A stretch of 64,000 bases of DNA from Giesbergeria anulus (GTDB taxonomy: Bacteria > Pseudomonadota > Gammaproteobacteria > Burkholderiales > Burkholderiaceae_C): NCBI RefSeq assembly GCF_900111115.1, contig NZ_FOGD01000001.1, forward strand, positions 428,910-492,909. The letters are read 5' to 3'. Shown in pieces: positions 45,141 through 61,941 of this stretch; position 1 is the first letter of the stretch, and each line of letters opens with the position of its first letter. Under the pieces are notes generated by a model. The model had not been told where the DNA came from, searched no databases, and saw only the letters and a list, made by a program, of their open reading frames with translations. The position numbers and the translations under genes are program-made.

Positions 45141-46148
45141 ATGGCAAAACGAATCAGCCTGACCCGCTATCTGGTCGAACACCAGCGCGTAGATGGACTT
45201 ATCCCCTCGCAACTGCGCCTGCTGCTCGAAGTGGTGGCCCGCGCCTGTAAGAGCATCAGCCAAGCTGTGAACAAGGGCGCGCTGGGTGGCGTGCTCGGCA
45301 GCGCCGACAGCGAAAACGTGCAAGGTGAAGTGCAAAAAAAGCTCGACATTATTGCCAACGAAGTGTTGATCGAGGCCAATGAGTGGGGCGGCCACTTGGC
45401 AGCGATGGCCTCGGAAGAAATGGACGGCATCTATGTCGTGCCCAACCGCTACCCGCAAGGCGAATACCTGCTGCTGTTTGATCCCTTGGATGGCTCCAGC
45501 AACATTGACGTCAATGTCAGCATCGGCACCATCTTCAGCGTACTGAAAAAGCCTGAAGGCGACCGGGGCGTGGAAGAAAAAGACTTCCTGCAACCGGGCT
45601 ACCAACAAGTAGCGGCGGGCTATTGCGTCTATGGCCCGCAAACCACCTTGGTGCTGACTGTGGGCGATGGCGTGGCCATGTTCACCCTAGACCGCGAGCA
45701 AGGCTCGTTTGTCTTGACGCAAGAAAGAGTGCGTATCCCCGAAGACACCAAAGAATTTGCCATCAACATGAGCAATATGCGCCACTGGGACGAACCCGTG
45801 CGCCGCTACATTGACGAGTGCCTGCAAGGCAAGGAAGGCCCACGCGGCAAAGACTTTAATATGCGCTGGATTGCCAGTATGGTGGCCGATGTGCATCGGA
45901 TCATGACCCGTGGTGGCGTGTTCATGTACCCTTGGGATAAGCGCGAACCCAACAAGCCGGGCAAACTGCGCCTGATGTACGAGGCCAACCCGATGGGCTG
46001 GCTGGTAGAGCAAGCGGGTGGCGCTGCCACCAATGGCCGTCAACGCATTTTGGACGTTCAACCTACGCAACTGCACGAACGGGTGAGCGTGATCTTGGGC
46101 TCCAAGAACGAAGTGGAGCGTGTCACTAGCTACCATCAGTCGGTATAA
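45141..46148 (+). CDS. fbp: Fructose-1,6-bisphosphatase class I
   Basis: 335 residues from ATG 45141, with GGAGAG as ribosome-binding site. Hydrolyses fructose-1,6-bisphosphate in gluconeogenesis and, if present, the Calvin cycle. Metal and substrate motifs: [35 protein letters not shown], and [20 protein letters not shown]. The tail [14 protein letters not shown] is typical. The promoter box of the tRNA-Thr gene overlaps its stop codon. Confidence 0.97.
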
Positions 46149-46149
46149 T
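46144..46149 (+). promoter_or_regulatory. -10 box of the tRNA-Thr promoter
   Basis: A perfect TATAAT overlaps the fbp stop codon (TAA at 46146-46148) and lies about 10 bp before the mature tRNA 5' end. A weak TGTCAC at 46121-46126 stands at -35 spacing. Confidence 0.7.
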
Positions 46150-46158
46150 GACGCCTTC

Positions 46159-46234
46159 GCCGGTGTAGCTCAGTCGGTAGAGCAGCTCATTCGTAATGAG
46201 AAGGTCGGGTGTTCGATTCATCTCTCCGGCACCA
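46159..46234 (+). tRNA. tRNA-Thr (anticodon CGT)
   Basis: 76 nt with encoded CCA. Acceptor GCCGGTG pairs with CTCCGGC apart from one T-T mismatch. D-arm GCTC/GAGC, anticodon loop TTCGTAA (anticodon CGT, reading ACG), T-loop TTCGATT. Its 3' part from 46189 is the attachment site of the integrative element that follows. The copy here remains intact, so host tRNA function is preserved. Confidence 0.95.
46189..46234 (+). repeat. attL: 46-bp direct repeat, left end of element 1
   Basis: The sequence from the anticodon stem to the CCA end of tRNA-Thr is repeated exactly at 58089-58134, 11,900 bp away. This is the usual product of tyrosine-recombinase integration into a tRNA 3' end. The bases outside the two copies differ. 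Confidence 0.93.
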
Positions 46235-46249
46235 TAAAATCAACAACTT

Positions 46250-46276
46250 AGCCACTCTTAACCGGGTGGCTTTTTT
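46250..46276 (+). terminator. Rho-independent terminator after tRNA-Thr
   Basis: AGCCAC (46250-46255) pairs with GTGGCT (46266-46271), followed by TTTTTT. It lies inside element 1, just past attL, and would end the tRNA transcript. A near copy lies just past the second att site at 58151. Confidence 0.85.
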
Positions 46277-46279
46277 GTT

Positions 46280-46300
46280 GGGCTAGCACGGGGCTAGCAC
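46280..46300 (+). repeat. Two GGGCTAGCAC repeats, left arm (11-bp period)
   Basis: GGGCTAGCAC occurs at 46280-46289 and 46291-46300. The same word occurs three more times, plus once inverted, beside the integrase at the other end. Spacing of 11 bp is about one helical turn. Likely integrase or excisionase arm-binding sites. Confidence 0.6.
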
Positions 46301-46361
46301 CAGAAAAAAATGGGGACTGTTTGTTGCGCGAATCTGACAGCTTTTTGCCGTAGCTCTGTCG

Positions 46362-46601
46362 TTAAGCCAGCCCCAAAACGGCCCATGCCTTTACCGCAAC
46401 TGGTGACGCTGGCCTAGGCAGTTGCTCCACGGCGGCCAGCACCACATTGGCGGATACCGCTCTTGAGACCTCATTCGGATTGACGCGCGACAGTGGACGG
46501 CGTACAAATGAGTGCAGCCCGGCGATAGGGGCGAACCTTGAACTAGCTTGCTGGTCAGGCCGCCCATAGGAATCCTGGGCTGCTTCGTCGTTTTGGGCCA
46601 T
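46362..46601 (-). CDS. Possible small hypothetical protein
   Basis: 79-codon open frame starting MAQNDEAAQDSYGRPDQQ. No ribosome-binding site and no recognised domain are visible, and an overlapping frame is also open. I list it because the 46301-46610 stretch otherwise holds nothing recognisable. Probably not a real gene. Confidence 0.2.
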   Translation of the reverse strand: MAQNDEAAQDSYGRPDQQASSRFAPIAGLHSFVRRPLSRVNPNEVSRAVSANVVLAAVEQLPRPASPVAVKAWAVLGLA

Positions 46602-46610
46602 TGCACAGCC

Positions 46611-47181
46611 GGTTCACAACCCCCGGTTTACAGCCCCAAAACGTGTAAACCAGTTTGTAAACTGCCCCAACTGGTTAACGGTTAACTGCCCCCAAACCAC
46701 GTTAACCACGGCGTTAACCTGAGTGGCAAGGGGCCAGCGCCGATACTTCACGCCACTCGCTTAACACCCCAAAATCTTGTTAAGCAGCCTGTTAAGTAAG
46801 TGCCCTGTTGGCACCTCTTGCCCACTAACCACGGCGCTAACCTGCACCACGCTAACCAAAGTACGCACTCAGAAATAGCGCTTCCGTGCGTACCGGGCTG
46901 CGTACCGTGGCCTTGCGTACCAACTTCGTGCCTACCCTTGCAGTCGGCATCTACTCCCAGAAGGTGCAGTTTCGCTGCGCACCTGCCTGCGCACCACACT
47001 TTGCGCACCAGCTCAAAAATGCGGGTTTCCGTGGAAACCTGCTTGGAAACCCCCAGTTTGGAAACCGGCCCTAAATATGCGGCTTTGGCTTGTAACCTTG
47101 CCTGCAACCATTGCCTCTGTAACCATCCTGAAAATGCCCGATTCCTTGGATACCAAGTTGGATACCTTGCCCTTGGATACC
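46611..47181 (+). repeat. Multi-word repeat array of element 1
   Basis: Non-coding array of distinct 7-bp words in classes. Classes with two inverted and two direct copies: GGTTCAC/GGTTTAC (46611, 46625) with GTAAAC (46645, 46657); GGTTAAC (46673, 46680) with GTTAACC (46701, 46713). One inverted and two direct: GCTTAAC (46759) with GTTAAG (46779, 46791). Triplets at 12 then 15 bp: CTAACC-type (46824, 46836, 46851), GCGTACC (46888, 46900, 46915; inverted GTACGCAC at 46861), GGAAACC (47033, 47045, 47060; inverted GGTTTCC at 47024), TGTAACC/TGCAACC (47091, 47103, 47118), GGATACC (47148, 47160, 47175). GCGCACC (46977, 46989, 47003) has 12 then 14. Element 2 has the same series. Confidence 0.93.
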
Positions 47182-47559
47182 ACGCAAACGCTTGTATCTC
47201 TGCTATTTAATAAATAGCGCTGGGCTGGCCTGCACCGAACGTGACGGGAAAGATTTCGGCACGTTCACAGCGGCGTTGTGCTGGATACCTCTTGGCTACT
47301 TTTGGCAACCAACAGCGCCACCGCCAAAAGCAAAATCCGGCACTGGGCCGGGCTGGGTAGGGGTCAGATTTGGAATCTAATCAAGACTGCTGGGCCACCA
47401 CAGTGGTATCCAGTCACGGCGGTAGCGACCCACCTTTAATTGGTTAGCCTCAACCTATCGCCGAATCAACAAGGATTGAACGCTACGGATTGGCCTAGCA
47501 GGGCAACGTGACAGACGGGAATCGACCCAAAGCGGATGTTTTCGCAGACCGAGGAGGAC
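47182..47559. other. Gap with no recognisable feature
   Basis: Between the array and the membrane-protein gene. Only short frames without ribosome-binding sites are open, and no repeat, RNA signature or strong promoter was seen. Confidence 0.5.
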
Positions 47560-48213
47560 TTATATATCCTGAAACTCTGGCAAGAAAGTGTATTCGCGAA
47601 TGGTATGGATGCCAGCACCTCCAAAATCAATAGAGAAGCGGGTACACATTTGAAGCACGTCATTCACAGCTTTCAGCGCGTGCTGCGCAGACTCCATGTA
47701 AGCGACCTCAAGTGCAACAACTGCCTCCAGAACGCCGAAGTAACGAGGTGTGATTCTTGCATTATCAAGCTGAGCAACATCCAACCGTTCTGCGAAACGC
47801 CTCAACGCTTCGATCCGGTGCGCCATCACATCGGTTCGGGCAGGCGTCTCGACGATGCCGCAAGTTTTGGTTAAGTCTTTCTGGATTCCAGTGGACACAT
47901 AGCGTATGTATCCAATAGCGGCCAAAACAATGGCAGTGTTTCTCAGACGTCTTTCGTATTCCTCGCATTCTCTTTTTTTACGCTCCCTGTCAGCTTGCGT
48001 ATGTGCAAGCCATACAGCTGCACCAATCGCTGCAACCGAGCCAATGGCTTGTACCCACGCAGCAGCATTCGCTCCCGAGAGTAGCCCCCGCGCAGCTGGC
48101 CAAGCAATAAGAAGAAGTAAGAGAACTATTGAAATGACAACACTGGTGCCAACAACCATCTGTGTAACGGTGGGTGGCGCATCCTCGGAATCTGGAGTAT
48201 TTTCTTTGTGCAT
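47560..48213 (-). CDS. Unknown two-helix membrane protein (cargo gene)
   Basis: 217 residues, not recognised. Residues about 20-45 (VVGTSVVISIVLLLLLIAWP) and about 50-68 (AAAWVQAIGSVAAIGAAVWL) are membrane helices. A charged segment with many Arg/Glu/Lys follows (ADRERKKRECEEYERRL), then a mostly helical cytoplasmic domain of about 130 residues. It occupies the variable end of element 1 between the repeat array and the decayed backbone gene. Element 2 carries no homologue in view. Such positions in P4-like elements often hold defence or host-interaction genes, but nothing in this sequence proves that. Confidence 0.7.
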   Translation of the reverse strand: MHKENTPDSEDAPPTVTQMVVGTSVVISIVLLLLLIAWPAARGLLSGANAAAWVQAIGSVAAIGAAVWLAHTQADRERKKRECEEYERRLRNTAIVLAAIGYIRYVSTGIQKDLTKTCGIVETPARTDVMAHRIEALRRFAERLDVAQLDNARITPRYFGVLEAVVALEVAYMESAQHALKAVNDVLQMCTRFSIDFGGAGIHTIREYTFLPEFQDI

Positions 48214-48299
48214 CTTGAAAAGTGTACTGTTGCACCATGGCGTAGTTGGAAGACCTCAGCAACCGCCCGTGCCCAAGCTGTAACCCTGAGTTGCGCCGT

Positions 48300-48796
48300 C
48301 CTACGACCAGGTTCTCCAGTACGGCATCCATCTCGTTGCAGTCAAACATTTCGTACGCGGGGTCATGTAGCGCGCAGCACGGCCTTGGCCTCGTCGCGGG
48401 TCTTGGGCCGGATGGTTGCCATGCAGTGGAATAGGTAATCCTCTCTGGCGGCATCACCAGTCTGCACCACTTGACGCAACCACAGTACGGCGTCCAAGTC
48501 GTCATCACCCGTTGCGGCTACGGGCTGGGGCGGTGCAACCGGGGTTTGCAGTGCTGTGCAATGGCTGGCTACCGGGTCAGGCAGCCGAAAAAACTCGCGC
48601 ACAGTTTGGGGTTGTCGCGGGTGATGCCAGAGTGGCTACTGATGGCCTTGACGGTGCCTAGAGGGATTCCAATGGGTTGAGATACCGCCTTGGCCGATTC
48701 CGTGCGGCGCAGCGCCAGCACCTAGGCGCGTAAGTGGTCAGGGATGGATGACCGGGTGGGGGCGCTTGCAACCCCCGGTTGCGATGTGTTCATCAT
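48300..48796 (-). pseudogene. Decayed copy of the HTH gene intact in element 2
   Basis: Alignment by eye to the 318-residue protein at 60985-61941 shows a start (MNTSQPGVASAPTRSS), then DHLRA followed by TAG where the intact copy has CAA. A 2-bp insertion lies before the EFF.LPDP segment. An internal deletion joins VVQTGDAA directly to REDYLFHCM, losing about 165 codons. A further frameshift precedes the MDAVLENLV tail. The normal upstream overlap with the Zn-ribbon gene is also lost. It therefore makes no full protein. Confidence 0.88.
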
Positions 48797-48804
48797 GGTT
48801 TGGC

Positions 48805-49398
48805 TCATTTTGCCGCTGCCTGTTCGTAGGCGGAATGCAGTTGCTGGCCTTCGGTGCAGCGGGCGCTGTGCCCCCCACTGCGGGCGGCGGCCTTGCAAGT
48901 GGGGCAGCTCCAGTGATGGGCCTGATAGGTGCGGTCGGCTACGTTCCAAGGCTGGGCCACATGGAACTTGGGCAGTGGTTTGGGGACTGGCGTCTGCACT
49001 GGTGCCTTTGCTGGTGCTGATGCTTGCATTGGTAGCTGGCTTTGCAGGTAGCGCTGCAAGTCGCCACGCAAGCCGGGCGGTGTCTGCTCGATGTCGGTGC
49101 GCCAGTCTTGCCGGGCCTTGTCACTGGCACCAGTTCGATCACACAAGGCCATCGCCAGCGCCAGCAGCGGGGCAATGCCGGGGTCAGGCGCTGGGGGTGA
49201 TGGCGTCCAATCTGAGGGCGATTTCTGATTTTCACTCTGCCCTCGTTCTTTTTTTGGGGCTACCGGGGCTACCGGGGCTACCGAAGCGTTTTCCCCTCTG
49301 AGGATGTCATTTTTTTCGGTAGCCCCGTGCAAAGTCTGCGGGGCTACCGGGGCTACCGGAACGGCTTTTAGGCGTTCCATCAGGCTAGGAACGGTCAT
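48805..49398 (-). CDS. Zn-ribbon-like protein following the replicase
   Basis: 197 residues. The N-terminal 60 residues are low-complexity and encode VAPVAP repeats because nine-base repeats run through them. A helical module (PGIAPLLALAMALCDRTGAS) and a C-terminal cysteine motif (WSCPTCKAAARSGGHSARC) follow, ending in QLHSAYEQAAAK. The last about 130 residues closely match the element-2 protein at 61938-62747. Function is unknown; the Cys/His pattern suggests metal or nucleic-acid binding. Its start overlaps the replicase stop by 4 bp. Confidence 0.85.
   Translation of the reverse strand: MTVPSLMERLKAVPVAPVAPQTLHGATEKNDILRGENASVAPVAPVAPKKERGQSENQKSPSDWTPSPPAPDPGIAPLLALAMALCDRTGASDKARQDWRTDIEQTPPGLRGDLQRYLQSQLPMQASAPAKAPVQTPVPKPLPKFHVAQPWNVADRTYQAHHWSCPTCKAAARSGGHSARCTEGQQLHSAYEQAAAK
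49256..49357 (+). repeat. Iteron cluster 1 of element 1 (six GGGGCTACC)
   Basis: GGGGCTACC occurs in tandem at 49256, 49265 and 49274, inverted at 49318, and in tandem again at 49340 and 49349. Gaps are 35 and 13 bp. The long gap holds a small dyad (CCTCTGAGG). It lies in the 5' part of the Zn-ribbon gene. The cluster at 56430-56533 is its mirror image. Confidence 0.92.
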
Positions 49399-52205
49399 TC
49401 TGTCGCCTCCGCACCATCGGGATACACTTCATAAAACTTCAGGTTTCGCCCTGCAATCTTGCGCTGGCGCTGGCGTTTTCCCCCTTGCCCGGCTGGCCCA
49501 ATCAGCCCGGCGGCCTCTAGGTAGGCCAGTGCCCTGCCGAAGTCAAAACCCTTCAAGGCTTCGCGCATCCCGGCCCCAATGAACAGGTACACGCGGCCTT
49601 GGTCGGTCTTGCGCCAGTATCCAGCCCGGTCACGAATCAATGGGGCGCGTGCATCCTCTGTGGCGTCGGCATCGCTAAATCGGCTGTCGCCATGCTTATC
49701 AATGAAGTCGGTCACGGCCTGCACAATCTGGCCCTGTTCTGCATTCGCGCCCGTCTTGTCAGTGCGCAGACTGCGCCACGCCTGAAAGCCCACAGCAGCA
49801 GCGCAGATAGCTTCGCCTGCGGGCCAGCCGGTAATGCCGTAGTCGGTAGCCAGTTCGCCCGCCATCGCCAGCACGGCAAAGCGGCCTGCAACCCGTTGTT
49901 CTTGCCCTTCGCCGTCGGTGCTGAATTCAGGCCGGGCGCGTATAGCGGCCAACAGTTCGCCCAAGTCGCTATCTTCGGTTGCCAAACGCTCTAGGAAGGC
50001 CCGGCCAGCGTGCCCGTAGTGGGTGGCGGCCTCAGTTTTGAGCGCGTCAGACAAGGCGCGAGCGCTGGGGTGGTGGTGCAAGGTGTCCCAAGCGCCAAAG
50101 GCACGCGGCGCACATGGCACATCAAACAGGCGCACCTGTTGCCCGGCCTTGATACGGTAGCCACCCTCGGCCATGCTGGTACCTATGCTGTATTCGCCAT
50201 TGGAGATAACGGCGCAGCGCCAGCGGGTCAACTGCCTACCGCCACCGTGCCGGGTAGCCCGTTGCTTGCCTTGTCCGTTCCCCAGCATATAGACCACTTC
50301 GCCCACGTCCTTCGGGTCGCATTCGCTGATTTCATCCAAGGCCAAAAGGCAGTCATTGAACATGGCGGCAGCAGCCTCTAGCCCGTTGCTGGTAGCGCGC
50401 CAGCTTCGTTTGTAGCCCTTGCCACCCCAGACACTGCACGCGGCTTGCAAGATGCTGGTCTTGCCCGTGGAACTGCCACCGATAAAGTGGGGGCCACCGT
50501 TTTCGGCATGGACTTTTGCCAGCACTGGCCCAGCAAAGGCCGCACACAAACCCAGCGCCAGCATAGGATTGCCCACCGCCATAGCCGCTATGCCAGCTTG
50601 CCAGCCTTGCAAGGTGCCAGCAGTGCCGTATTCACCACTGGCGCGGTCTTCAGACTGATAAACCACGTCGGCAGCTTGTGGGCCAATCACGGCATCGGGC
50701 AGAACAAAGGCTTTGCATTTGGCATCTACCCAACCCGTTTGCGCCACGCATTGCAGGTGCTTATTGGGGTGCTGGCTTTGCAGGTACATCGCCAGTGCTT
50801 GCCTAGCGTTGGGACTCAAGTCGGCCCCCATATCCAGCAAGATAGAACGCAGCTCGATACCGTCACCGGCCAGCATACGCATAGGCATGGCCCACTCTAC
50901 CCAGTTGCCACGCCGGTTTTTAATGCGCAGCATTTGCCCATAGCTGCCGTCGTGTGCATCCGAAGTAATGGCTTCAACGTGCATCGGGCTGCATATCCAT
51001 TGCTGGGTGGGCACCAAGGTAGCGCTATCGCCCTTGCCCACCGACTTCATGGCGAAAAGCCAGACACCGGGGCGAAACTTTTGCCCGTCTTCACTGTGCC
51101 AGTCTTCAAACACCACATAGGCCGGGCGTTCGTTTTCGGCGGGTATCTGGCTGGTGCTGGCCTTGGTATCGGTGGGTGCTGGTGGTGGCTTGGTGGGCTG
51201 GGTGGCCGTAGCCAATAGGTCGGCTAGGGCTTGGGGGCCATGCGCTTGCAGGTAGTCCCAAGCGTCCGTGTTGTCCTCCCAGTCGCCGGGCAAGGGCACC
51301 ACGGCGCAACCTAGCTCTTTGGCCGTCTTTTGGGCTTGGGCTTCCTGCCCTACGTCTGGCACCAGCACCGGCCATGCTTGCGGGTGGTGCTCTATCACCG
51401 CCTTGGTCACTGCTGTGGTGCGGCCTACGCCAAAGGTCACTACCGCTGCGGTGCCCGTGGCCTGATAGATGGCCCATGCCGCGCCTATGCCCTCCACGAT
51501 ATGCACCGGCTGGCCTGCCTGTATTTGGCCGATAACGTGGAACCCTTGTGCGCCCGTGTCGGTTTTAAAGTGGTAGCCCCTCAGATTCGGCTTTTCAAAC
51601 TGGGGTGAACCGTCGGGCTTGGTGCCCACTTGGGCAACGCACTGCACAGTGAGCAACGCACCATCGGGCAAGCAAACAGGCACCAACAAAGCACCGGCCA
51701 TGCTGTGGCCTTTCAGGCGCAGCGGGTCATTGTCTGGCAGCACGCGCAAACCCTCCAAGGCCGGGCCATCGGTCACACCTTTGGCAATGCAGTAGGGGTG
51801 CTGGGCTGTGGCTGGCGCTGCCCGCTCCCAGATATTGAGCAGGTCGTACACCGGGTTTGGCGGCTTGGGCGCTTCGGTGGGGGCTGGCGCTGGTGGGGGC
51901 GGTGGTGTCCTTTTCTGGGTGGCAGCGCCTGTCCGTGGTGCCTTGGGCGCGTTCCATCCATCACGCTTTGCCATGCCGTATAGGGTAGCAACACCAATGC
52001 CGCCTTCTTTGGGTGGCAGACTGTTCCAAGTGGAACGGCACGCGCTGGCATCGTAGGTGTCACCCCCACGGCTCCATTGGTCGAACGTGTCGAATTCAAT
52101 CCCAGCGGCACGAACGGCGGCGCAGACTCTGGCCCAATCCTCACGCGGCATATTGGGGCTAAGGTGGTGCAAGGCACTGATAGCCTTGTCAAGTTCATGG
52201 GTCAT
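49395..52205 (-). CDS. P4 alpha-type primase-helicase (PriCT_2, Toprim-like, DUF927)
   Basis: 936 residues. N-terminal PriCT_2-like domain (residues 1-85, LSPNMPREDWARVCAAVRAA). Toprim-like region (about 200-320) with Glu238 in VHIVEGIGAAWAIYQATG. The DUF927 region begins about residue 360. Helicase Walker A is GGSSTGKTS at 576-584, Walker B LLALDEIS at 620-627, and a sensor-like VISNGEYSIGTSM follows. In P4-type satellites such a protein primes and unwinds DNA for autonomous replication and binds iterons. It is the largest gene of the element and the last but one of the overlapping-start operon. Tandem 9-bp repeats start just past its stop codon. Confidence 0.92.
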   Translation of the reverse strand: MTHELDKAISALHHLSPNMPREDWARVCAAVRAAGIEFDTFDQWSRGGDTYDASACRSTWNSLPPKEGGIGVATLYGMAKRDGWNAPKAPRTGAATQKRTPPPPPAPAPTEAPKPPNPVYDLLNIWERAAPATAQHPYCIAKGVTDGPALEGLRVLPDNDPLRLKGHSMAGALLVPVCLPDGALLTVQCVAQVGTKPDGSPQFEKPNLRGYHFKTDTGAQGFHVIGQIQAGQPVHIVEGIGAAWAIYQATGTAAVVTFGVGRTTAVTKAVIEHHPQAWPVLVPDVGQEAQAQKTAKELGCAVVPLPGDWEDNTDAWDYLQAHGPQALADLLATATQPTKPPPAPTDTKASTSQIPAENERPAYVVFEDWHSEDGQKFRPGVWLFAMKSVGKGDSATLVPTQQWICSPMHVEAITSDAHDGSYGQMLRIKNRRGNWVEWAMPMRMLAGDGIELRSILLDMGADLSPNARQALAMYLQSQHPNKHLQCVAQTGWVDAKCKAFVLPDAVIGPQAADVVYQSEDRASGEYGTAGTLQGWQAGIAAMAVGNPMLALGLCAAFAGPVLAKVHAENGGPHFIGGSSTGKTSILQAACSVWGGKGYKRSWRATSNGLEAAAAMFNDCLLALDEISECDPKDVGEVVYMLGNGQGKQRATRHGGGRQLTRWRCAVISNGEYSIGTSMAEGGYRIKAGQQVRLFDVPCAPRAFGAWDTLHHHPSARALSDALKTEAATHYGHAGRAFLERLATEDSDLGELLAAIRARPEFSTDGEGQEQRVAGRFAVLAMAGELATDYGITGWPAGEAICAAAVGFQAWRSLRTDKTGANAEQGQIVQAVTDFIDKHGDSRFSDADATEDARAPLIRDRAGYWRKTDQGRVYLFIGAGMREALKGFDFGRALAYLEAAGLIGPAGQGGKRQRQRKIAGRNLKFYEVYPDGAEATE

Positions 52206-52573
52206 ACGCTTACCCCCGCTTGCTGCACTGCGCTGGCTGGCACTTGCTGGATGTATTTTTTAGGAAGGTGAAAGACCGCAACATGGCGGCTACGGTTACG
52301 GCGCGATGGCTCCGGTACCGTTACCTTGTCGATAGGCCAGCCCAATTTTTTGAGCCTCCCCACTGCGGCGGGTAGCCGGGTGCTCTCGGTCAGTTGGCGA
52401 AACCGTTCCACAGTGACAAATTCGCCAGCAATGAACAGTTCCAAGGCGGTGTAGTCGCCGGTGCCCATGTTGGGCCAGCGTGGTGCGAACGGTGGCAAGG
52501 GGATAGCAGGCAAATCCATTTGCACGGGCACCCCGGCGGCGCAGCTTGGGCGCTGCATTTGGTTTTTAGTCAT
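52202..52573 (-). CDS. Small hypothetical protein before the replicase
   Basis: 123 residues. Not a named family. The middle part (TALELFIAGEFVTVERFRQL and PAAVGRLKKLGWPIDKV) looks like a winged-helix fold that reads DNA or RNA. Its position directly before the replicase, with a 4-bp start-stop overlap, suggests a replication or copy-control accessory. Confidence 0.72.
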   Translation of the reverse strand: MTKNQMQRPSCAAGVPVQMDLPAIPLPPFAPRWPNMGTGDYTALELFIAGEFVTVERFRQLTESTRLPAAVGRLKKLGWPIDKVTVPEPSRRNRSRHVAVFHLPKKYIQQVPASAVQQAGVSV

Positions 52574-52583
52574 GGCTGGCGTC

Positions 52584-52775
52584 CTACTGGGTCAGGTTCG
52601 GCGTCTGGCTGGCGATGAACTCACGCAGCACGCTGCGGGCGGTCATCAAGTCAACCATGCGGGCGGCAGCATCAGCAAAGCCGGGGCTGTTCAGGCTGCG
52701 ATGTTCGGCAAGGTCAGTAGCCGCATCGTCCAGTTCGGCATCCAGCCACGCCAAGTAATCGGTGGTGGTGCTCAT
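52584..52775 (-). CDS. Small acidic hypothetical protein
   Basis: 63 residues from ATG 52775, preceded by a strong GGAGGAGG. It reads MSTTTDYLAWLDAELDDAAT and is helical. The start overlaps the upstream stop by 4 bp (ATGA), which decides the start against a longer in-frame version. No function can be assigned. Confidence 0.7.
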   Translation of the reverse strand: MSTTTDYLAWLDAELDDAATDLAEHRSLNSPGFADAAARMVDLMTARSVLREFIASQTPNLTQ

Positions 52776-53050
52776 ACCTCCTCCGACTCGTTCAACAGGC
52801 GTTGCAGCCGGTCGTTGACGTGAGAAAGCACGTTGGGCAAGGTGTCGTGGTGTGTGTCCCAATTGCAGGGCGCAACTACACGGGCGTTAATGCGCTCACT
52901 CACTTCTGGGTACCAGCGACGAACCTCGTCGATACCCTCTAAGGTGCGGCGGGCATCAGCAGCAAAGGCGGCCAGCGTGATGATGTCGTTGAGGTTTTGC
53001 AGTTCGCACCACGTTTCAGCGTCCAGCGTTTTTTTGGTGATGGTGCTCAT
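52772..53050 (-). CDS. Small hypothetical protein
   Basis: 92 residues, MSTITKKTLDAETWCELQNL. Helical, no recognised domain. Starts and ends overlap both neighbours by 4 bp, so it is translationally coupled in the replicase operon. Confidence 0.72.
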   Translation of the reverse strand: MSTITKKTLDAETWCELQNLNDIITLAAFAADARRTLEGIDEVRRWYPEVSERINARVVAPCNWDTHHDTLPNVLSHVNDRLQRLLNESEEV

Positions 53051-53262
53051 GCTGCCACCTCCATGACTTGCAGGGCCTTGAGCAGTTGCACGGCCTTGCG
53101 GCGGGCGGCTGGCAGGTTGCCACGGCGGATATAAAGGCCAGCCAGCGCGGATGCGTTGATGGCTTCAAGCAAGGCGAATGCTTGGGCTTCGGTGGGGGTG
53201 GTGCCCGTGGTGGGCGTGTGGATGGGCGCAGCGCAGCGGCTGGCCACGGGGGACGTGGTCAT
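53047..53262 (-). CDS. Small helical protein, first of the coupled gene set
   Basis: 71 residues from ATG 53262, with AGGAG about 10 bp upstream. It reads MTTSPVASRCAAPIHTP and then a helical part rich in Ala and Arg (LYIRRGNLPAARRKAVQLL). The frame stays open upstream to 53685, so a longer product is possible; I prefer the short form on its ribosome-binding site. Confidence 0.65.
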   Translation of the reverse strand: MTTSPVASRCAAPIHTPTTGTTPTEAQAFALLEAINASALAGLYIRRGNLPAARRKAVQLLKALQVMEVAA

Positions 53263-53668
53263 GGTTTCGGCTCCTAACTGAGACGGCAAACCACTCGGGC
53301 CAGTGTTCAAGCTGTACCGGGTGGGCTGGGTGGTTGAACAGGTGCAGTTAGTCACCCCCCGCACCTCACGGATACGGGACACCCAGCCCAAAACCATCGC
53401 GCCCCGGAAAATTCGGGAACGCATGAAAACTAGGCATGGCAAAGCCCCGCTATCGTGGGGGCCTTGGACGCTAACTGCGATTTGTTCAACTTTGGTGTGT
53501 TCAGCACCGTGGCGGACTGTAGCACGGGCCTGCACGGTGGTACAAGCGGCCAGCGCCAGCCGATTGACGGCCCGCATGGTGGTGGCAGAATGCAGCTTGC
53601 TTAATGCGGCGCTCTCCATTGCCTTCGGGTGGTGGGGGGCGTTTTGCTTGGTGTGCATCTTTTGCCCC
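53263..53668 (-). other. Leader region with an unbroken upstream frame
   Basis: About 400 bp between the HTH gene and the first small gene. The minus-strand frame of the downstream gene stays open across all of it (for example VLGWVSRIREVRGVTNCTCS). In P4-type islands an Ash-family frame commonly occupies this place, and the sequence has that flavour, but I cannot confirm it. It may be a transcribed leader with regulatory RNA or an extended coding region. Confidence 0.35.
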
Positions 53669-53935
53669 CTACACCGTAGCGCCACTGACGCGGCACCGTT
53701 GCTGCAACCAATCTTCCAAGTCGGCGCGGCGATAACGCACGTTGCGGCCTACCTTGAGAAAGGGCAGTTTGTAGCGGCCTGTGCTGCGCCAGACAGACAG
53801 CGTTCCGGGTGACAAGTCCAGCACGGCGGCGGCTTGCCTTTCGTCCAATAGCTCCTTGGTAGGTTCGATCAGGGCCTGAATATGCGGTGTGGGCGTGGTT
53901 ACGCCTACCGGGTGGGCGGTATTGATTGCTTGCAT
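53669..53935 (-). CDS. HTH (MerR/excisionase-like) DNA-binding protein
   Basis: 88 residues. The C-terminal half has the helix-turn-helix DERQAAAVLDLSPGTLSVWR, then KLPFLKVGRNVRYRRADLED, the wing typical of HTH_17 excisionase-type proteins. Likely regulates the element's operon or directs excision. AAGGGG precedes its start, 9 bp after the AlpA-type gene. Confidence 0.85.
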   Translation of the reverse strand: MQAINTAHPVGVTTPTPHIQALIEPTKELLDERQAAAVLDLSPGTLSVWRSTGRYKLPFLKVGRNVRYRRADLEDWLQQRCRVSGATV

Positions 53936-53944
53936 AGTGGCCCC

Positions 53945-54502
53945 TTACAGCGAAGCCACTAGGGCGCGAATATCAGCGGCACGCCATGCAACGGCACGGG
54001 TGGCAATCTTTACGGGTGGGGGGTATATGCCAGACTTCACACCAGCAAACCAAGTGCGTTTACTGACCGGATAGCGCTGTAACACCGTGGGCAATCGCCA
54101 CAGTTCAAATTCTGGATTATCGGGAGGGGGTGCGCCAGTACGAGTTACCGCATTGCACGGTGGGGCGCGAAGGGGGGATAGGCTAGGGGATGGTCGCCAC
54201 CCGTCGGGGTCGCCGTCACCATCCCCGCCATCATCATCGTCGGATGATGCTTCGGGCGCAGCGTCGGTGCCAGTGGCTTCGGTGCAAGCCGATTCGGTAG
54301 TGGATACACCACCTCCGCCGGATTCTGGGAAGCCGTTGGTAATGGCGTTCTTAACTCCTTCAAAAATAGAAGGAGCTGTACGGCGGCAAGTATTCTGATG
54401 GCGGTGGTTTTGGGTGCCGTAGTCCCCCATGAAAGCCAACGCCGTAGATTCGCCACCAATGCCAAAGCCGATATATGTTGCAGCAATCATATCTCTGTTC
54501 AT
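53945..54502 (-). CDS. AlpA-type regulator with long acidic N-terminal extension
   Basis: 185 residues. The last 50 match AlpA regulators (RLPTVLQRYPVSKRTWFAG, then PPPVKIATRAVAWRAADIRA). AlpA usually has only about 70 residues. Here a 130-residue N-terminal part of unknown nature precedes it, including an Asp-rich stretch (SSDDDDGGDGDGDPDG). AlpA proteins switch on excision genes of P4-like elements. The ATG has AAAGGG upstream. Either this is a fused regulator, or only a shorter downstream start is used. Confidence 0.8.
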   Translation of the reverse strand: MNRDMIAATYIGFGIGGESTALAFMGDYGTQNHRHQNTCRRTAPSIFEGVKNAITNGFPESGGGGVSTTESACTEATGTDAAPEASSDDDDGGDGDGDPDGWRPSPSLSPLRAPPCNAVTRTGAPPPDNPEFELWRLPTVLQRYPVSKRTWFAGVKSGIYPPPVKIATRAVAWRAADIRALVASL

Positions 54503-54694
54503 GTTTTCCCTTTCACGCTGCTAAGAAGTGCAGCGCGGGGCAAATATACCCGAAGCCGTAGGGCACTACACCGGCATGGCAAAGCTCCCAGCACCAGATA
54601 TGCAAGGTTTATCCAAGGGGGCAGCACGCTCAAATGTCAGGTTTTTTTAGGTTTTGCACCCAGCACCAGCAAGGCAAAAGCCACGGTCAAGGGT

Positions 54695-55012
54695 TTAGGC
54701 GTGCACCATTTGCGGGGCCGGTTGAACGTGCATAGGCGTGGCCTTAAATCGCTGCTCGACTTGCCACACGTCATAGGCGCTTTGTTCTGCCAGCCACAAC
54801 CGGGCTTCGCCACCACGTTCTACCCCCAGCCATGCCTCTATGCGCAGCGCCATTTCAGGCGATACAGCAGCGCGGCCATTCAATACGCGGGACAAAGTCA
54901 CGCGGGATACGTCCAATTGCTGGGCAGCTTGGGTAACGCTTAGACCCAAGGCGGGTAATACATCATCGCGCAGCGTGAGGCCGGGGTGCGGTGGGTTGAA
55001 TATGCGGGGCAT
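54695..55012 (-). CDS. HigA-family regulator without toxin partner
   Basis: 105 residues. XRE helix-turn-helix LGLSVTQAAQQLDVSRVTLS with PHPGLTLRDDVLPALG, then MALRIEAWLGVERGGEARL, the HigA/VapI pattern. No HigB toxin is adjacent. It follows the MazF-type toxin gene by 12 bp on the same strand. It may be an orphan antitoxin or a regulator of the cassette. Confidence 0.88.
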   Translation of the reverse strand: MPRIFNPPHPGLTLRDDVLPALGLSVTQAAQQLDVSRVTLSRVLNGRAAVSPEMALRIEAWLGVERGGEARLWLAEQSAYDVWQVEQRFKATPMHVQPAPQMVHA

Positions 55013-55024
55013 GGTGCTTGTCGG

Positions 55025-55363
55025 TTAATCCAGCAAGGCAGCAAGCCGGGCGCGTACTTCCTCAGTAATGTGGTCTGGTGCCCGCTCTATCCAACGGGCA
55101 CGGCGGGCGCTGGCGTCAATCATGCGGAACTGTTGCACCAGCACAATCCCCGCTGTTTCAGTCCCTGCCCCGGTCAGGGATACCGCCATACCCACAGCAC
55201 GGGCACCCTGTCCGCCTTGGGTAATGGGGCACACGCCTATCAAGCCCAATCGGTTAAAGGCTTGTGGCGTCAACACCAGCGCCGGGCGGTGGCCTTGCTG
55301 TTCACGGCCCAAAGTAGGGTCAAAGGTCAGGGCTACGATGTCGCCACGTTCAAACACCTTCAC
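55025..55363 (-). CDS. MazF/PemK-type toxin
   Basis: 112 residues. Begins FERGDIVALTFDPTLGREQQ, then GHRPALVLTPQAFNRLG and VCPITQGG, the MazF/ChpB fold. Members cut mRNA at short sequences. The gene overlaps the antitoxin stop by 4 bp, a normal operon arrangement, so it forms a TA module. Confidence 0.92.
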   Translation of the reverse strand: MKVFERGDIVALTFDPTLGREQQGHRPALVLTPQAFNRLGLIGVCPITQGGQGARAVGMAVSLTGAGTETAGIVLVQQFRMIDASARRARWIERAPDHITEEVRARLAALLD

Positions 55364-55614
55364 AGTGCCACCTCACGGCCTGTTGCTGGCATGGTGTCCC
55401 AATCGGTATCCAGCGCCAGCGGGGCGTCACCTTGCATAGCAAGCACCTGCTCTAGCGTGTAGCTACGGCGGGCAGCGGGTGCCACGATGAGGCGGCCCTG
55501 TTCCGCGTCTAGGCTCACTGTGTCGCCAGCGTGTAAGCCCAAGGCACGGGCCAGCTTTTGCGGGATGGTCAGGGCGATGGAACCGCCTACGGTGCGAAGG
55601 GTAGAGGTGTGCAT
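55360..55614 (-). CDS. MazE-type (AbrB/SpoVT) antitoxin
   Basis: 84 residues from ATG 55614. MHTSTLRTVGGSIALTIPQK is a swapped-hairpin AbrB DNA-binding start, followed by LARALGLHAGDTVSLDAEQG. The C-terminal tail (LDTDWDTMPATGREVAL) would wrap the toxin. A longer frame to 55893 has no such features. A dyad just upstream is a likely autoregulatory site. Confidence 0.9.
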   Translation of the reverse strand: MHTSTLRTVGGSIALTIPQKLARALGLHAGDTVSLDAEQGRLIVAPAARRSYTLEQVLAMQGDAPLALDTDWDTMPATGREVAL

Positions 55615-55624
55615 AGTGGTTGCT

Positions 55625-55654
55625 CCAAAAGTTGCACACAGTTTAACTTTTTGG
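55625..55654. promoter_or_regulatory. Dyad upstream of mazE, possible operator
   Basis: CCAAAAGTT (55625-55633) and AACTTTTTGG (55645-55654) form an inverted repeat with one extra base, 11 bp before the antitoxin start. MazE-type antitoxins bind such palindromes to repress their own operon. Confidence 0.45.
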
Positions 55655-55756
55655 GCGTTTTGGCGCTGGTGAACGGCGGCATACACACCACGGCACCAGC
55701 GGGAAGGGGTACCAGCACCAGCAAGGGCAAACAATGGCACCGGCTGGCGCTGTCGG

Positions 55757-56068
55757 TCAGGCGTGGGCCAGCTTGGGCGTGTGGCGTTGGATGCGTGCCA
55801 ACACGTCCGACATGGCATCTTTGGCGCGAAGGATGTCGTAATCGGTTTGCAGGTTGACCCAGCTTTGCGCGTCGGTGCCAAAGAAGGCAGCAAGGCGCAG
55901 CGCGGTATCGGCGGTAATGGCGCGTTGCCCCTTCACGATCTCATTGATACGCCGGGGCGGTACCCCGATAGCCTTGGCTAGGGCGTATTGACTCAGGCCC
56001 ATAGGGGACAGCCATTCTTCTTGCAGCACTTCGCCGGGGTGGGGCCACTTCAGTTGTTCATCGGTCAT
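55757..56068 (-). CDS. higA: HigA-type antitoxin
   Basis: 103 residues from ATG 56068, preceded by GAAAGG. Contains WPHPGEVLQEEWLSPMGLSQ, YALAKAIGVPPRRINEIVKG and ADTALRLAAFFGTDAQSWV, a standard HigA. It lies 11 bp after higB in the usual toxin-first order, and the pair autoregulates by HigA binding. Confidence 0.94.
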   Translation of the reverse strand: MTDEQLKWPHPGEVLQEEWLSPMGLSQYALAKAIGVPPRRINEIVKGQRAITADTALRLAAFFGTDAQSWVNLQTDYDILRAKDAMSDVLARIQRHTPKLAHA

Positions 56069-56079
56069 TGCATTGCCTT

Positions 56080-56358
56080 TCAGTGGTAATCGGTGATTTC
56101 TACCCGGTGGGCGCGGCCATCGCACCAGACAAAGCACAGCCGCCATTGCTCGTTTATGCGGATACTGTGCTGGCCTTTTCTGTCGCCTTGCAGGGCCTCT
56201 AACCGGTTGCCGGGGGGCACGCGCAGAAAGTCCAATGTGGTAGCAGCGTTCAACTGCGCCAGCTTGCGTAAGGCCACGGCTTCAATGTTGGCAAAGCGTG
56301 GCACCCGGCGGCGCAGAAATAGCGCGTGGGTGTCTGCACACTGGAAGTCTTGAATCAT
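56080..56358 (-). CDS. higB: HigB-type toxin (RelE fold)
   Basis: 92 residues, MIQDFQCADTHALFLRRRVP. The family pattern RKLAQLNAATTLDFLRVPPG, RLEALQGDRKGQHSIRINEQ and WRLCFVWCDGRAHRVEITDYH is complete, including the conserved RINEQWRLCF. A ribosome-dependent mRNA interferase. Confidence 0.95.
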   Translation of the reverse strand: MIQDFQCADTHALFLRRRVPRFANIEAVALRKLAQLNAATTLDFLRVPPGNRLEALQGDRKGQHSIRINEQWRLCFVWCDGRAHRVEITDYH

Positions 56359-56367
56359 GCCTTAGAT

Positions 56368-56386
56368 GATAACGTATGGCGTTATT
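56368..56386. promoter_or_regulatory. HigA operator candidate
   Basis: The palindrome ATAACG-TATGG-CGTTAT (56369-56385) lies 10 bp before the higB start codon. HigA-type repressors bind dyads of this kind at their own promoter. Confidence 0.55.
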
Positions 56387-56429
56387 GATTGACACAAAAA
56401 GCACCAGAAAGGGCAAGAAATGGGCTTTC

Positions 56430-56533
56430 GGTAGCCCCGGTAGCCCCGCAAAAAATCCAAGGGGCTACCAACTTTTGGGCCTGTTTTCCCTCTGTGGAGG
56501 GGTCAAGGTAGCCCCGGTAGCCCCGGTAGCCCC
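56430..56533 (-). repeat. Iteron cluster 2 of element 1 (mirror of cluster 1)
   Basis: GGTAGCCCC in tandem at 56430 and 56439, then GGGGCTACC at 56461, then GGTAGCCCC in tandem at 56507, 56516 and 56525. Gaps are 13 and 37 bp. In reverse orientation this is the same 3-1-2 layout as cluster 1. The long gap again holds a dyad (CCCTC...GAGGG). It is intergenic between higB and the integrase gene; no gene is seen in 56359-56712. Confidence 0.92.
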
Positions 56534-56712
56534 AAAATAAATACAAGTCGCGCGAGAGTTTTCCCAAGCTGGGCCACTTGCACCAGCCGTAGAGGGTTGC
56601 CCTTGCTGGTACTGGGTGCCCTTTCTTGCCTTCGCTGGCGCTGGTGGCCCCAGAAAGGACAAACCCGGCGCATGGCCGGGCTGGTGGTGGGGTGCTGGTG
56701 GTTCGTGCGGCC

Positions 56713-57924
56713 TTAGGCGGCCTTTGCTAACAGTGGCACCACTTGGGCAGGCTGTTTTAGGCCAGCGGCTTCCATCATTGCGCTGGTGGCTGCATTGACC
56801 GACTGGCGTACCGGGTGGAGGTCAAGGCGCGCATAGATGCCGGTAGCGCGCTGGGTCTTGTGGTTCAGGCTCTTACCAATGATGGCTAGGCTGGTGCCTG
56901 TGCGCGCTTGCCAGCTCCCCAGCGTGCGGCGCAAGTCGTGAACGCGCAAGCCCTCGATATTGGCCGCTTCCAACAATCTAGCCCATGCCCGTTTGGGTTC
57001 CACAATATGGCCGGTACTGCCTGTGCCGGGGAAGACGTAACCGCTACTGGTGCCCTCGGACAAGTCCTTGCGTTGCTGCAACACGGCCACGGCTTCGGGG
57101 CTAAGGGTCACATTCTGGGGCGTGCCGTTTTTGGTCATGGCAATGCGCCAAAGGCCAGCACCCATATCAATGTCTTGCCAGCGCATAGAGGCCACGTTAG
57201 CGCGGCGTGCCCCCGTCAACAGTGCCACCATAAAGAAGTCGCGCATGGTGGGGTTGGGCATATCGGCCAGCGCCTGAAAGAACCTTGCCAGTTCGTCCGA
57301 TAGCAAATAGCGGTCACGCTCGATAGGTGGGTTCTTCTTGATACGTTCCGCCGGATTGGGGCCAGCGAAGTGCTCCATATCCTTCATAAACGAAAACACC
57401 GCCGACACCAGCGCCACACACTTATCGGCTTGGGCTGGGCTGCCCTTGGTGACACGGGTATGGGTGGCCTTGATTTCGGTGCGCTCGATGGCCGATAGCT
57501 TTTTGGCCTTGATGCCATCCATGTGCAAGCGCAACAGATCGCCGTAATCCTTTTTGGTCTTGGCACCGATAGGCGTGCCGTCACGCTTGCGCTTGTCCTT
57601 GAGGAAAATCTCTAACGCTTCGGCAAAGGTGGGTTCTTCCTTCAATGCACGCTTAACCGCTGCTGGATTCGCCCCAGTCGCAAACTCTCCCAGCACCTTG
57701 CCAGCTTCGGTGCGGGCCTGTTCCACGGTCATATCCGGGAACGCTCCCAGCTTGAACCATGCCATGCTGGTGCCAGCACGCTTAATCACATAGAAAGTCT
57801 TGGCCCCAGTCGAGGTAACACGAACGGCCAAAGCCGGAACCTTGGTGTCGTAGATGGTTTTGCGTTGCCGGGCTAGCGGTAGCGCAACGGCTTGCAGCAA
57901 TGTTTTGGTTAAGTGCTCTCTCAC
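56713..57924 (-). CDS. int: P4-type tyrosine integrase
   Basis: 403 residues from a GTG at 57922-57924, chosen because AGAAAGG lies 7 bp upstream; an ATG at 57948 would start inside the arm repeats. An N-terminal DUF4102-type arm domain (YDTKVPALAVRVTSTGAKTF) precedes a SAM-like core-binding domain. The catalytic domain has Arg in LTGARRANVASMRW, HDLRRT, and the His/Lys-Tyr box LNHKTQRATGIYAR. It recombines the tRNA-Thr att sites. The gene lies next to attR and reads away from it. Confidence 0.94.
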   Translation of the reverse strand: MREHLTKTLLQAVALPLARQRKTIYDTKVPALAVRVTSTGAKTFYVIKRAGTSMAWFKLGAFPDMTVEQARTEAGKVLGEFATGANPAAVKRALKEEPTFAEALEIFLKDKRKRDGTPIGAKTKKDYGDLLRLHMDGIKAKKLSAIERTEIKATHTRVTKGSPAQADKCVALVSAVFSFMKDMEHFAGPNPAERIKKNPPIERDRYLLSDELARFFQALADMPNPTMRDFFMVALLTGARRANVASMRWQDIDMGAGLWRIAMTKNGTPQNVTLSPEAVAVLQQRKDLSEGTSSGYVFPGTGSTGHIVEPKRAWARLLEAANIEGLRVHDLRRTLGSWQARTGTSLAIIGKSLNHKTQRATGIYARLDLHPVRQSVNAATSAMMEAAGLKQPAQVVPLLAKAA

Positions 57925-57938
57925 AATGGGGCCTTTCT

Positions 57939-58005
57939 GGGCTAGCACCGGGCTAGCACTGGGCTAGCAGGAACGGTTAAAAATGGGGTGGTTTGGTGCT
58001 AGCCC
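57939..58005 (+). repeat. GGGCTAGCAC repeats at the integrase end (right arm)
   Basis: GGGCTAGCAC at 57939-57948 and 57950-57959, GGGCTAGCAG at 57961-57970 (11-bp period), and inverted GTGCTAGCCC at 57996-58005. With the left-arm pair this gives six sites flanking the joined attP in the circular form. Likely integrase arm sites. Confidence 0.65.
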
Positions 58006-58088
58006 GTTAAGGTCATTCTATGGTTAAGATGTTGTTTTATAAAGGAGCGTTAAGGTAGGGCAAAGATGGTAAAACACCCGGCCCACAG

Positions 58089-58134
58089 ATTCGTAATGAG
58101 AAGGTCGGGTGTTCGATTCATCTCTCCGGCACCA
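58089..58134 (+). repeat. attR of element 1 / attL of element 2
   Basis: Exact copy of the tRNA-Thr 3' part (46189-46234). The upstream tRNA half is absent, so this is not a functional tRNA. It separates element 1 from the next, related element. Confidence 0.93.
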
Positions 58135-58150
58135 ATAAAAACAACAAATT

Positions 58151-58177
58151 AGCCACTTCTTCGGGAGTGGCTTTTTT
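58151..58177 (+). terminator. Rho-independent terminator at the left end of element 2
   Basis: AGCCACT (58151-58157) pairs with AGTGGCT (58166-58172), followed by TTTTTT. It corresponds to the terminator behind tRNA-Thr at 46250 and is a diverged copy. Confidence 0.85.
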
Positions 58178-58192
58178 GTTGGTCGTGCTGGT

Positions 58193-59621: not shown

Positions 59622-59641
59622 CCCACCCAGTGGCTAGTGCT

Positions 59642-60158
59642 GGTTAACGTAGGCTGGTTAACGCCCCAAAATCGCGTTAACCACGGCGTTAACCTGAGTG
59701 GCGTGGGGCCATGCCGGTGCTTAACACCCCCAAATCGCGTTAAGCACGGTGTTAAGCAACAGGCCTTTCGCGTCCTGTCACCGCTACCTTTTTACCACCC
59801 ACACCGCGCTAACCACGGCACTAACCTGCACCACACTAACCAGACAAGTACGCACCCAGAAAGTGCGCTTTCCGTGCGTACCATGCTGCGTACCGGGTCT
59901 TGCGTACCAACTTCAACCCCACATTTGCAGTCGGCACCCACTCCCAGAAATAGCGCTTTCGCTGCGCACCGGTCTGCGTACCGCAATCCTTGCGCACCAG
60001 TTCCAAAATGCGTATTTTCTTGGAAACCTGCTTGGAAACACCGGCCTTGGAAACTTGGCTTTGGCTGGTAACCGCTGCTGGTAACCAGTGCTTTGGTAAC
60101 CATCCTGCAAACGCTCAATTCTGTGGATACCGCTCTGGATACCTTGCCCTTGGATACC
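59642..60158 (+). repeat. Multi-word repeat array of element 2
   Basis: Same ordered series as in element 1: GGTTAAC (59642, 59656) with GTTAACC (59676, 59688); GCTTAAC (59719) with GTTAAGC (59739, 59751); CTAACC-type (59808, 59820, 59835); GCGTACC (59876, 59888, 59902; inverted GTACGCAC at 59848); GCGCACC/GCGTACC (59964, 59976, 59992); GGAAAC (60022, 60034, 60049); GGTAACC (60067, 60080, 60095); GGATACC (60125, 60137, 60152). Most spacings are 12 then 15 bp; exceptions are 13, 14 and 16. Linkers differ from element 1 at many bases. No gene is seen in 59622-60227. Confidence 0.93.
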
Positions 60159-61927: not shown

Positions 61928-61941
61928 AATGTGTCCGTCAT
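60985..61941 (-). CDS. HTH protein of unknown function, intact copy
   Basis: 318 residues, with AGGAG before ATG 61941. N-terminal helix-turn-helix (LRAQVLALRRTQSAKAVSQA, LGIPLGTVKAISSRSG). A middle helical part follows (IKTLEKDLEKRYGDYLMRVS) and a long C-terminal domain without recognised family. It starts with a 4-bp overlap on the Zn-ribbon gene. Element 1 has a decayed copy at 48300-48796. Likely a DNA-binding regulator of the element. Confidence 0.82.
   Translation of the reverse strand: MTDTLQPGVASAPTRSSISDHLRAQVLALRRTQSAKAVSQALGIPLGTVKAISSRSGITRDNAKLREFFKLPDPAASHCIALQPPVAPPQPVAVTGDDDLDAVLWLRQVVQTGDAALIAKAMQAAQRIKTLEKDLEKRYGDYLMRVSNGDTMRAVFGSIGFANIKGLAERTLDKQAHQREALARFGSVDAVFATLPQEQFCLDALALVPKQEKSIWQFDIALTNAAFAAQADMAPHTLSDCLYELAFWDGLYRLRDGWGTGCGDGPAEVNAREDYLFCCMGQLRPKSRQEAKSILRYLADHERMDRTGVDAILDNLIG

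Follow-up and report, generated by a model that had tools for sequence, protein, structure and literature searches.

The window analyzed here, a stretch of 64,000 nucleotides of Giesbergeria anulus DNA, holds at 46611-47181 a row of short repeats in which the 7-bp word changes from one unit to the next, and the question raised by this locus is what would read such a series. Direct reading of the letters agreed with an earlier, sequence-only reading that nine word classes follow one another in order over these positions, all read on the forward strand. The first three classes are direct pairs 12 bp apart without a third copy at 15: unit 1 (46625-46663) holds inverted GGTTTAC and then GTAAACC/GTAAACT, unit 2 (46673-46719) two inverted GGTTAAC and then two copies of GTTAACC, and unit 3 (46759-46797) inverted GCTTAAC and then GTTAAGC/GTTAAGT. 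The inverted upstream copies previously claimed for these classes were present in each. Exact triplets spaced 12 and then 15 bp (12/15) were found in three of the nine classes, GCGTACC in unit 5 (46860-46936; copies at 46888, 46900, and 46915, with inverted AGTACGC before them and a fourth copy, GCCTACC, at 46930), GGAAACC in unit 7 (47033-47066; copies at 47033, 47045, and 47060), and GGATACC in unit 9 (47148-47181; copies at 47148, 47160, and 47175). Two more were no more than one letter off, with one copy deviating, namely unit 4 (46824-46857; ACTAACC/GCTAACC/GCTAACC at 46824, 46836, and 46851) and unit 8 (47091-47124; TGTAACC/TGCAACC/TGTAACC at 47091, 47103, and 47118). In unit 6 (46977-47009) the three copies of GCGCACC (46977, 46989, and 47003) are spaced 12 and then 14, not 15. 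The 12-then-15 geometry was thus exact in three of the nine classes and within one letter of exact in two more.

A second array in the window (59639-60158, forward strand) contains GTTAACC, GTTAAGC, ACTAACC, GCGTACC, GCGCACC, GGAAACC, GGTAACC, and GGATACC in that order, i.e. eight of the nine classes of array 1 (GTAAACC is absent) with the order unchanged. One class differs between the arrays as a whole set, TGTAACC in array 1 and GGTAACC in array 2. All 12 start positions of an exact 7-mer in the arrangement W-12-W-15-W within the window fall inside one or the other array; across the 33 x 33 spacings tried on the window the mean was 0.04, and the runner-up spacing (9,9) had 10. Clusters of at least three words were absent from 2.8 Mb of second-order Markov sequence, in which seven single units occurred. 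This null does not mimic coding repeats, which yield period-12 clusters in real loci. An RNA gene was rejected as a candidate, as only a tRNA reached the cut-off in an Rfam search of 46000-48300, and a coding repeat was rejected because the unit lengths break frame, although open frames (119-143 aa) cross the array. Searches by blastn with the array gave no match in phages or plasmids and a match in 2 of 250 family genomes, one of them its own genome; this scant similarity is attributed to little being kept beyond the words and their spacing.

Two integrative elements, inserted in tandem at tRNA-Thr, contain the arrays; they span 46189-58182 (approximately 11.9 kb) and 58089-69533 (approximately 11.4 kb). 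The integration target, tRNA-Thr(CGT), was located at 46159-46234 on the forward strand by ARAGORN and Rfam (RF00005). The left attachment repeat of element 1 (46189-46281, forward strand), comprising the 3' part of the tRNA gene and downstream sequence, is 91.7% identical to the repeat between the two elements (58089-58182, forward strand), and a copy past the window end, 69480-69533, matches 46187-46240 at 96% identity. Element 1 encodes on the reverse strand a primase-helicase with DUF927 and PriCT_2 domains (49395-52205; PHROG DNA primase), an AlpA-like helix-turn-helix protein of an excisionase/regulator family (53669-53935; Pfam HTH_17, PHROG 66), and a tyrosine integrase with an Arm-DNA-bind_3 domain (56713-57948); it also encodes toxin-antitoxin genes. 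The AlpA-like protein had a weak additional match to small-terminase family phrog_57 (E 3.6e-4). A separate integrase and a Toprim protein are encoded by element 2; the C-terminal part of the primase-like gene of this element (62744-63991, reverse strand) runs past the window, with Toprim present in the L733 reading. A 318-aa protein of PHROG 6204 is encoded at 60985-61941 on the reverse strand of element 2 and has relatives in array loci L009, L136, L616, and L625 (E at most 1.1e-64) and a fragment in L619. Its structure model was poor (mean pLDDT 57), and by eye its N-terminus is helix-turn-helix-like. Attachment repeats, an integrase, and a replication gene, taken together as the criterion for a phage satellite, were found for both elements. 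No capsid, portal, or large-terminase gene was detected among 15 proteins of element 1 scanned with Pfam and/or PHROGs; for element 2 the scan covered only some of the proteins. The size of P4, about 11-12 kb, is similar to that of the window elements.

Each array sits near the left end of its element, and array 1 adjoins the attachment site, opposite to the integrase-primase operon. Direct repeats of GGGCTAGCAC occur at 46280-46302 and 57938-57988, just inside the attachment repeats of element 1, and are likely the arm sites of the element 1 integrase. The array itself could be read as a set of integrase arm sites, or as an accreted row of old attachment sites, given that it lies a few hundred bases from an attachment repeat and that the integrases have arm-binding domains. 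This reading is scarcely credible: the GGGCTAGCAC repeats beside both attachment repeats suit integrase arms better, the words track the recognition helices of phage small terminases as described below, and a relative of the window integrase was found in only 2 of 240 listed viral loci with two of the words. The last is a weak test, as those loci are short stretches and a single integrase served as the query.

Viral contigs were scanned for GGAAACC and GCGTACC triplets (at least 120 stretches each). In 182 of the 240 loci listed, the triplet is antisense to an open frame, in which it reads as V-x4-V-x3-V. Two such proteins matched PHROG 1206, the terminase small subunit (TerS), with E values of 1.1e-70 and 2.7e-89. 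A total of 56 phage records contained TerS homologues, for many of which the annotation was small terminase, and terS stood directly before terL in all seven phage records inspected. Among the matches listed at 12/15, the triplet was internal to terS in 90 of 93 cases for GCGTACC, 85 of 93 for GGAAACC, 97 of 104 for GGATACC, and 19 of 22 for GGTAACC, and for the rarer words in 1 of 1 for GCTAACC and 0 of 2 for GCGCACC. With all allowed spacings the corresponding counts among listed matches were 114/124 (GCGTACC), 85/120 (GGAAACC), 98/121 (GGATACC), and 24/124 (GGTAACC, with 26 further matches in sense orientation within a TerS-like gene), and 1/24 for GCTAACC and 1/91 for GCGCACC, the remainder of these two being mostly at 12/12 or other spacings. 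The TerS HMM behind these counts was built from word-picked genes. Outside terS, GGTAACC triplets spaced 13/15 or 13/16 in L383, L432, L440, L444, L451, and similar loci open a frame that by eye resembles a ParB-like or methylase-associated phage protein.

A word-independent sample was taken as the best 80 of 496 loci by TerS homology, with a query alignment derived from word-picked genes. An exact 12/15 triplet of some 7-mer was present antisense in 69 of the 70 distinct terS genes so obtained, compared to a mean of 0.6 and a maximum of 2 in 20 runs of synonymous-codon shuffling. Of 24 matches to TerS in family genomes, a set with many remote or fragmentary members, 5 contained the triplet (shuffle mean 0.1). 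Since codon-shuffled genes lose the triplets, the constraint acts on DNA, and selection on DNA, not on protein alone, keeps the triplets in terS. A site in or next to terS, beside terL, is expected of a pac- or cosB-like element; the phage triplets meet this criterion, and no terS lies near the array copies.

A second expectation, that the sequence of the site be set by the TerS helix, was met by covariation only. A helix-word table was compiled from 302 distinct terS genes with one mismatch allowed; 16 helices were unparsed, one was misparsed, and seven genes had no triplet. GGATACC goes with helix THGA[IV]N, GGAAACC with [ST]HTAI[NSG], GCGTACC with [ST]EGA[IV]R, GGTAACC with SHVAI[AQGS], SHAAIS, and SHPAIT, GGCAACC with [ST]HQAIS and SHTAIQ, and GTTAACC with SHVSIN, SHVTIS, and SHVAIH; single genes link GCTAACC to SDAGII and GCGCACC at 12/12 to PESTIR. 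SHVAI comes near to a clash, going with GGTAACC except when the last residue is H. The word GCGAACC was picked as a prediction from Pseudomonas and Halomonas arrays: it was terS-internal in 86 of 120 loci, and the helix was [STC]DTAIR or SETAIR in 77 of 78 distinct genes, the remaining one being unparsed. Residues 3 and 6 of the helix sort with the word as G,N with GGATACC (85 genes), G,R with GCGTACC (81), T,R with GCGAACC (77), and T,N with GGAAACC (74), so that the off-cells of the 2 x 2 residue-base table are empty; the minor helices T,S and T,G (GGAAACC, one each) and one misparsed helix bring no conflict. From these sequences, base 4 would be A when residue 3 is T and T when residue 3 is G, and bases 2-3 would be GA when residue 6 is N and CG when it is R. 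The choice at base 4 is silent in TerS because GTT and GTA both encode valine. The TerS recognition helix thus appears to set which word is read, an inference from covariation without binding data.

To this extent the sequence-only suggestion of binding sites for related proteins of different specificity gained support from sequence, the proteins likely being TerS, since the words match helix types. Unit 2 carries the word of SHV[ST]I-type TerS, unit 4 that of the SDAGII type (one gene only, L499), unit 5 that of [ST]EGAIR, unit 7 that of [ST]HTAIN, and unit 9 that of THGAIN, and the array 2 counterpart of unit 8, with three copies of GGTAACC, that of the SHVAI type. No TerS was assigned to units 1 and 3, and none convincingly to unit 6. 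GCGCACC, GTTAAGC, GTAAACC, and TGTAACC fall outside the TerS-assigned words, which limits the reading.

When the words were mapped onto a tree built from TerS with the helix and triplet regions removed, 65 changes were required, compared to a possible minimum of 9 and an average of 86.8 in shuffles; few columns were available, and many forks were unresolved. In independent pairs on well-supported branches, base 4 and residue 3 were concordant in 13 of 13 and base 2 and residue 6 in 12 of 12, and the crossed pairings were not significant (of 13, approximately 3 the same, 1 opposite, and 9 without difference). On this tree phages switch specificity often, helix and word together. The TerS proteins of L295, L686, and L252 are near neighbors, separated by short branches, and carry three different helix-word pairs (THGAIN, THQAIS, and SEGAIR), a placement pointing to modular swaps. 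All seven named phage records inspected, of 56 matches, fit the code: GCGTAC occurs in HK639, SEN34, GF-2, GZ7, and Erwinia phage 49, GGATAC in Acidovorax phage AP1, and GCGAAC in Pseudomonas phage Shamal, the latter two matching over six letters only. The spacing is 12/13 in GZ7 and 13/12 in Erwinia phage 49; spacings of 13/12 and 13/13 are also seen in the Pseudomonas and Halomonas arrays.

The code bears on the possibility that the words are origin iterons, sites of the element's own replication protein (DUF927 or DUF3987). The array does lie beyond the primase operon in many loci, but a single initiator can hardly be expected to recognize eight or more words that differ, the words that could be assigned belong to phage TerS, and element 1 and L009, whose arrays have words in common, have unlike primases (DUF927 and DUF3987, respectively); taken together this leaves iterons a very improbable explanation.

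Arrays were sought in other genomes with a pattern joining GGTAACC and GGATACC; across 84,980 genomes it returned 21 stretches, of which L610, L617, L618, L624, and L627 were dropped for showing no unit. Arrays or short arrays were found in Azotobacter, Pseudomonas, Halomonas, Thauera, Simplicispira, Zoogloea, Marinobacter, Variovorax, one Burkholderiales genome, and some viral contigs. Clusters of at least three words were present in both window arrays and in L013, L024, L046, L081, L136, L355, L501, L609, L613, L614, L615, L616, L619, and L625; period-12 rows, as well as L382, L398, and L600, were excluded on visual inspection, and L001, L002, and L012 are the window arrays again. The census arrays have one unit per word, except for GCGTACC, which occurs twice in L013. 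Of 25 stretches checked, 24 contained one to five of the eight TerS-assigned words and L010 none, with the counts of GGTAACC and GGATACC favored by the search pattern. Elsewhere in the G. anulus genome, L009 has a further array, L010 has a degraded one, and at L011:8231-8405 the words TGTCGCG, GCTGCGT, and TGCTACC occur at closer spacing in what may be an array for other terminases.

Neighborhoods were compared in 12 of the 21 loci, hand-chosen at one per genome; L616 and L619 (which share a genome with L615), L623, L626, and the five unit-less loci lay outside this sample. Seven of the twelve (L608, L611, L612, L620, L621, L622, and L628) have at most two ACC units and are thus regarded as short arrays. 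A reversed control pattern gave no match in the 12 genomes examined in full. A tyrosine integrase was encoded on the array contig within 16 kb in 10 of 12 cases, none being found on the array contigs of Azotobacter and Simplicispira, and in nine of the ten contigs it lay on the opposite strand, 6-16 kb off, reading towards the array; the exception was Variovorax guangxiensis (G726). DUF927 occurred within 12 kb of 6 of the 12 arrays, on the opposite strand every time. Elements 1 and 2 and L009 share this layout, with the integrase opposite the array. The expectation that arrays track with P4-type integrases and replicases was therefore borne out for proximity to tyrosine integrases, and for replicases only in part, DUF927 or DUF3987 being present in some cases. 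In two Pseudomonas loci a lone tail gene lies between primase and array (L609:3865-4827, baseplate hub PHROG 196; L612:3762-4571, tail assembly protein PHROG 32), and a tape-measure gene (L614:4247-7180) lies on the far side of a Halomonas array. Among array-bearing genomes the TerS family was detected in 2 of 12, among family genomes in 19 of 349, and among genomes of the class, at a stricter limit, in 7 of 369; TerS of the PHROG 1206-type family was not found in the array's own genome. Given this rarity in array-bearing genomes, helpers would mostly arrive by infection.

Results are consistent with the array being a set of pac- or cosB-like packaging-initiation sites by which a phage satellite would serve phages of several specificities, an explanation held with considerable confidence although binding and packaging are inferred. 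The case is built from sequence features, namely the triplets, their location in terS, the helix-word code, the repeated joint switches, and the shared element architecture; binding of TerS to array units, initiation of packaging by that binding, and travel of the elements in virions are inferences. A helper TerS, inferred to bind three direct 7-bp copies inside its own terS, would be supplied in trans and bind the matching array triplet on the excised or replicating element. The bound TerS would recruit the large terminase, and packaging would start. Serving whichever TerS type arrives, the array would allow the element to ride in particles of several phage kinds, and by covering many alternatives at once it may answer the specificity switching of phages.

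Sites identical to terS words would equally suit a decoy with an antiphage function, which would titrate or misdirect TerS from many phages while the element itself stays unpackaged, and restriction genes adjoin some arrays (L009 and L620). A sponge should gain from many copies, however, and mostly a single unit per specificity is present; a fixed strand and place relative to integrase and primase would also be unneeded for titration. Packaging is favored over the decoy because of the shared strand and the mostly single units, and the decoy is considered unlikely. The restriction genes are of type I (L009:11804-14857 and L620:2567-5931), and their position beside the array is reminiscent of the P4 cos defense hotspot; as described in the available part of PMC8628076, P4 cos lies in a variable region also holding defense genes.

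The arrays might also be inert fossils, terS fragments captured by recombination and without a present role. Some units do read as a TerS-like peptide on the minus strand (PVSKLGVSKQVSTET), L013 has a weak TerS HMM match (E 7.7e-6), and same-word terS was the closest group in three of six units tested. Against this, an entire triplet distinguishes array 1 from array 2, and similarity in the flanks is mostly gone with words and spacing kept, a combination which in our reading indicates selection on the words and makes a fossil origin without function highly improbable. Linker and flank identity between units and same-word terS was at best 0.44-0.66. Plain copies of terS were likewise rejected on a mostly negative flank test, and with little kept beyond words and spacing the units are not recent copies.

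Packaging by a helper terminase has precedents with which the array can be compared. The cosB R sequences of lambda, 21, and N15 likewise form three related TerS-binding sites at the TerS gene, and helix and R-site differences set packaging specificity in lambda-like phages, according to the accessible portions of PMC9026076 and PMC4669245. There, however, each genome has one specificity, R2 is inverted, and an IHF site lies between R3 and R2, whereas each phage triplet consists of a 7-bp word in three direct repeats at 12/15 within terS, and the satellite joins many specificities. The pac site of P22 also lies within the small-terminase gene; it is a single 22-bp asymmetric site, in contrast to the 7-bp word repeated three times (PMC9611059, in the text available). 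P4-like satellites also have an integrase, AlpA, and a primase-helicase and lack virion proteins, as far as the accessible text of PMC8628076 extends; they carry a cos of one helper type, and the window element a multi-specific array. Outside any dedicated search, the P4 core genes psu, sid, delta, and epsilon were not encountered in the window element. In Gram-negative PICIs the satellite packaging site likewise redirects the helper terminase, but this is done through the adaptor Rpp, which has an R3 site of its own, and helper R sites are absent, whereas the window array displays helper words (PMC9026076, in part). The principle of helix and R-site specificity, and of helper-type cos sites on satellites, is thus known. 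As the sequence-only reading had supposed in finding no described feature class that fits, no earlier report of a multi-specificity array was found in open-licence PMC full texts, and in the portions of open-licence full texts on TerS recognition that were available, no helix-word code was found beyond lambda-like phages.

That satellites could widen their host range via several helpers has been proposed (PMC8628076, available in part). It is probable that a widespread family of satellites of approximately 11 kb stocks a polyvalent array, such that many unrelated phages can package it, and that the code of TerS is readable from its words. How TerS recognizes DNA was named a key unanswered question in a 2022 review, as far as the accessible text of PMC9611059 goes. 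Because word and helix change together, residue by base, the recognition code is readable and testable, and hundreds of natural terS genes in effect represent an experiment already done on TerS recognition.
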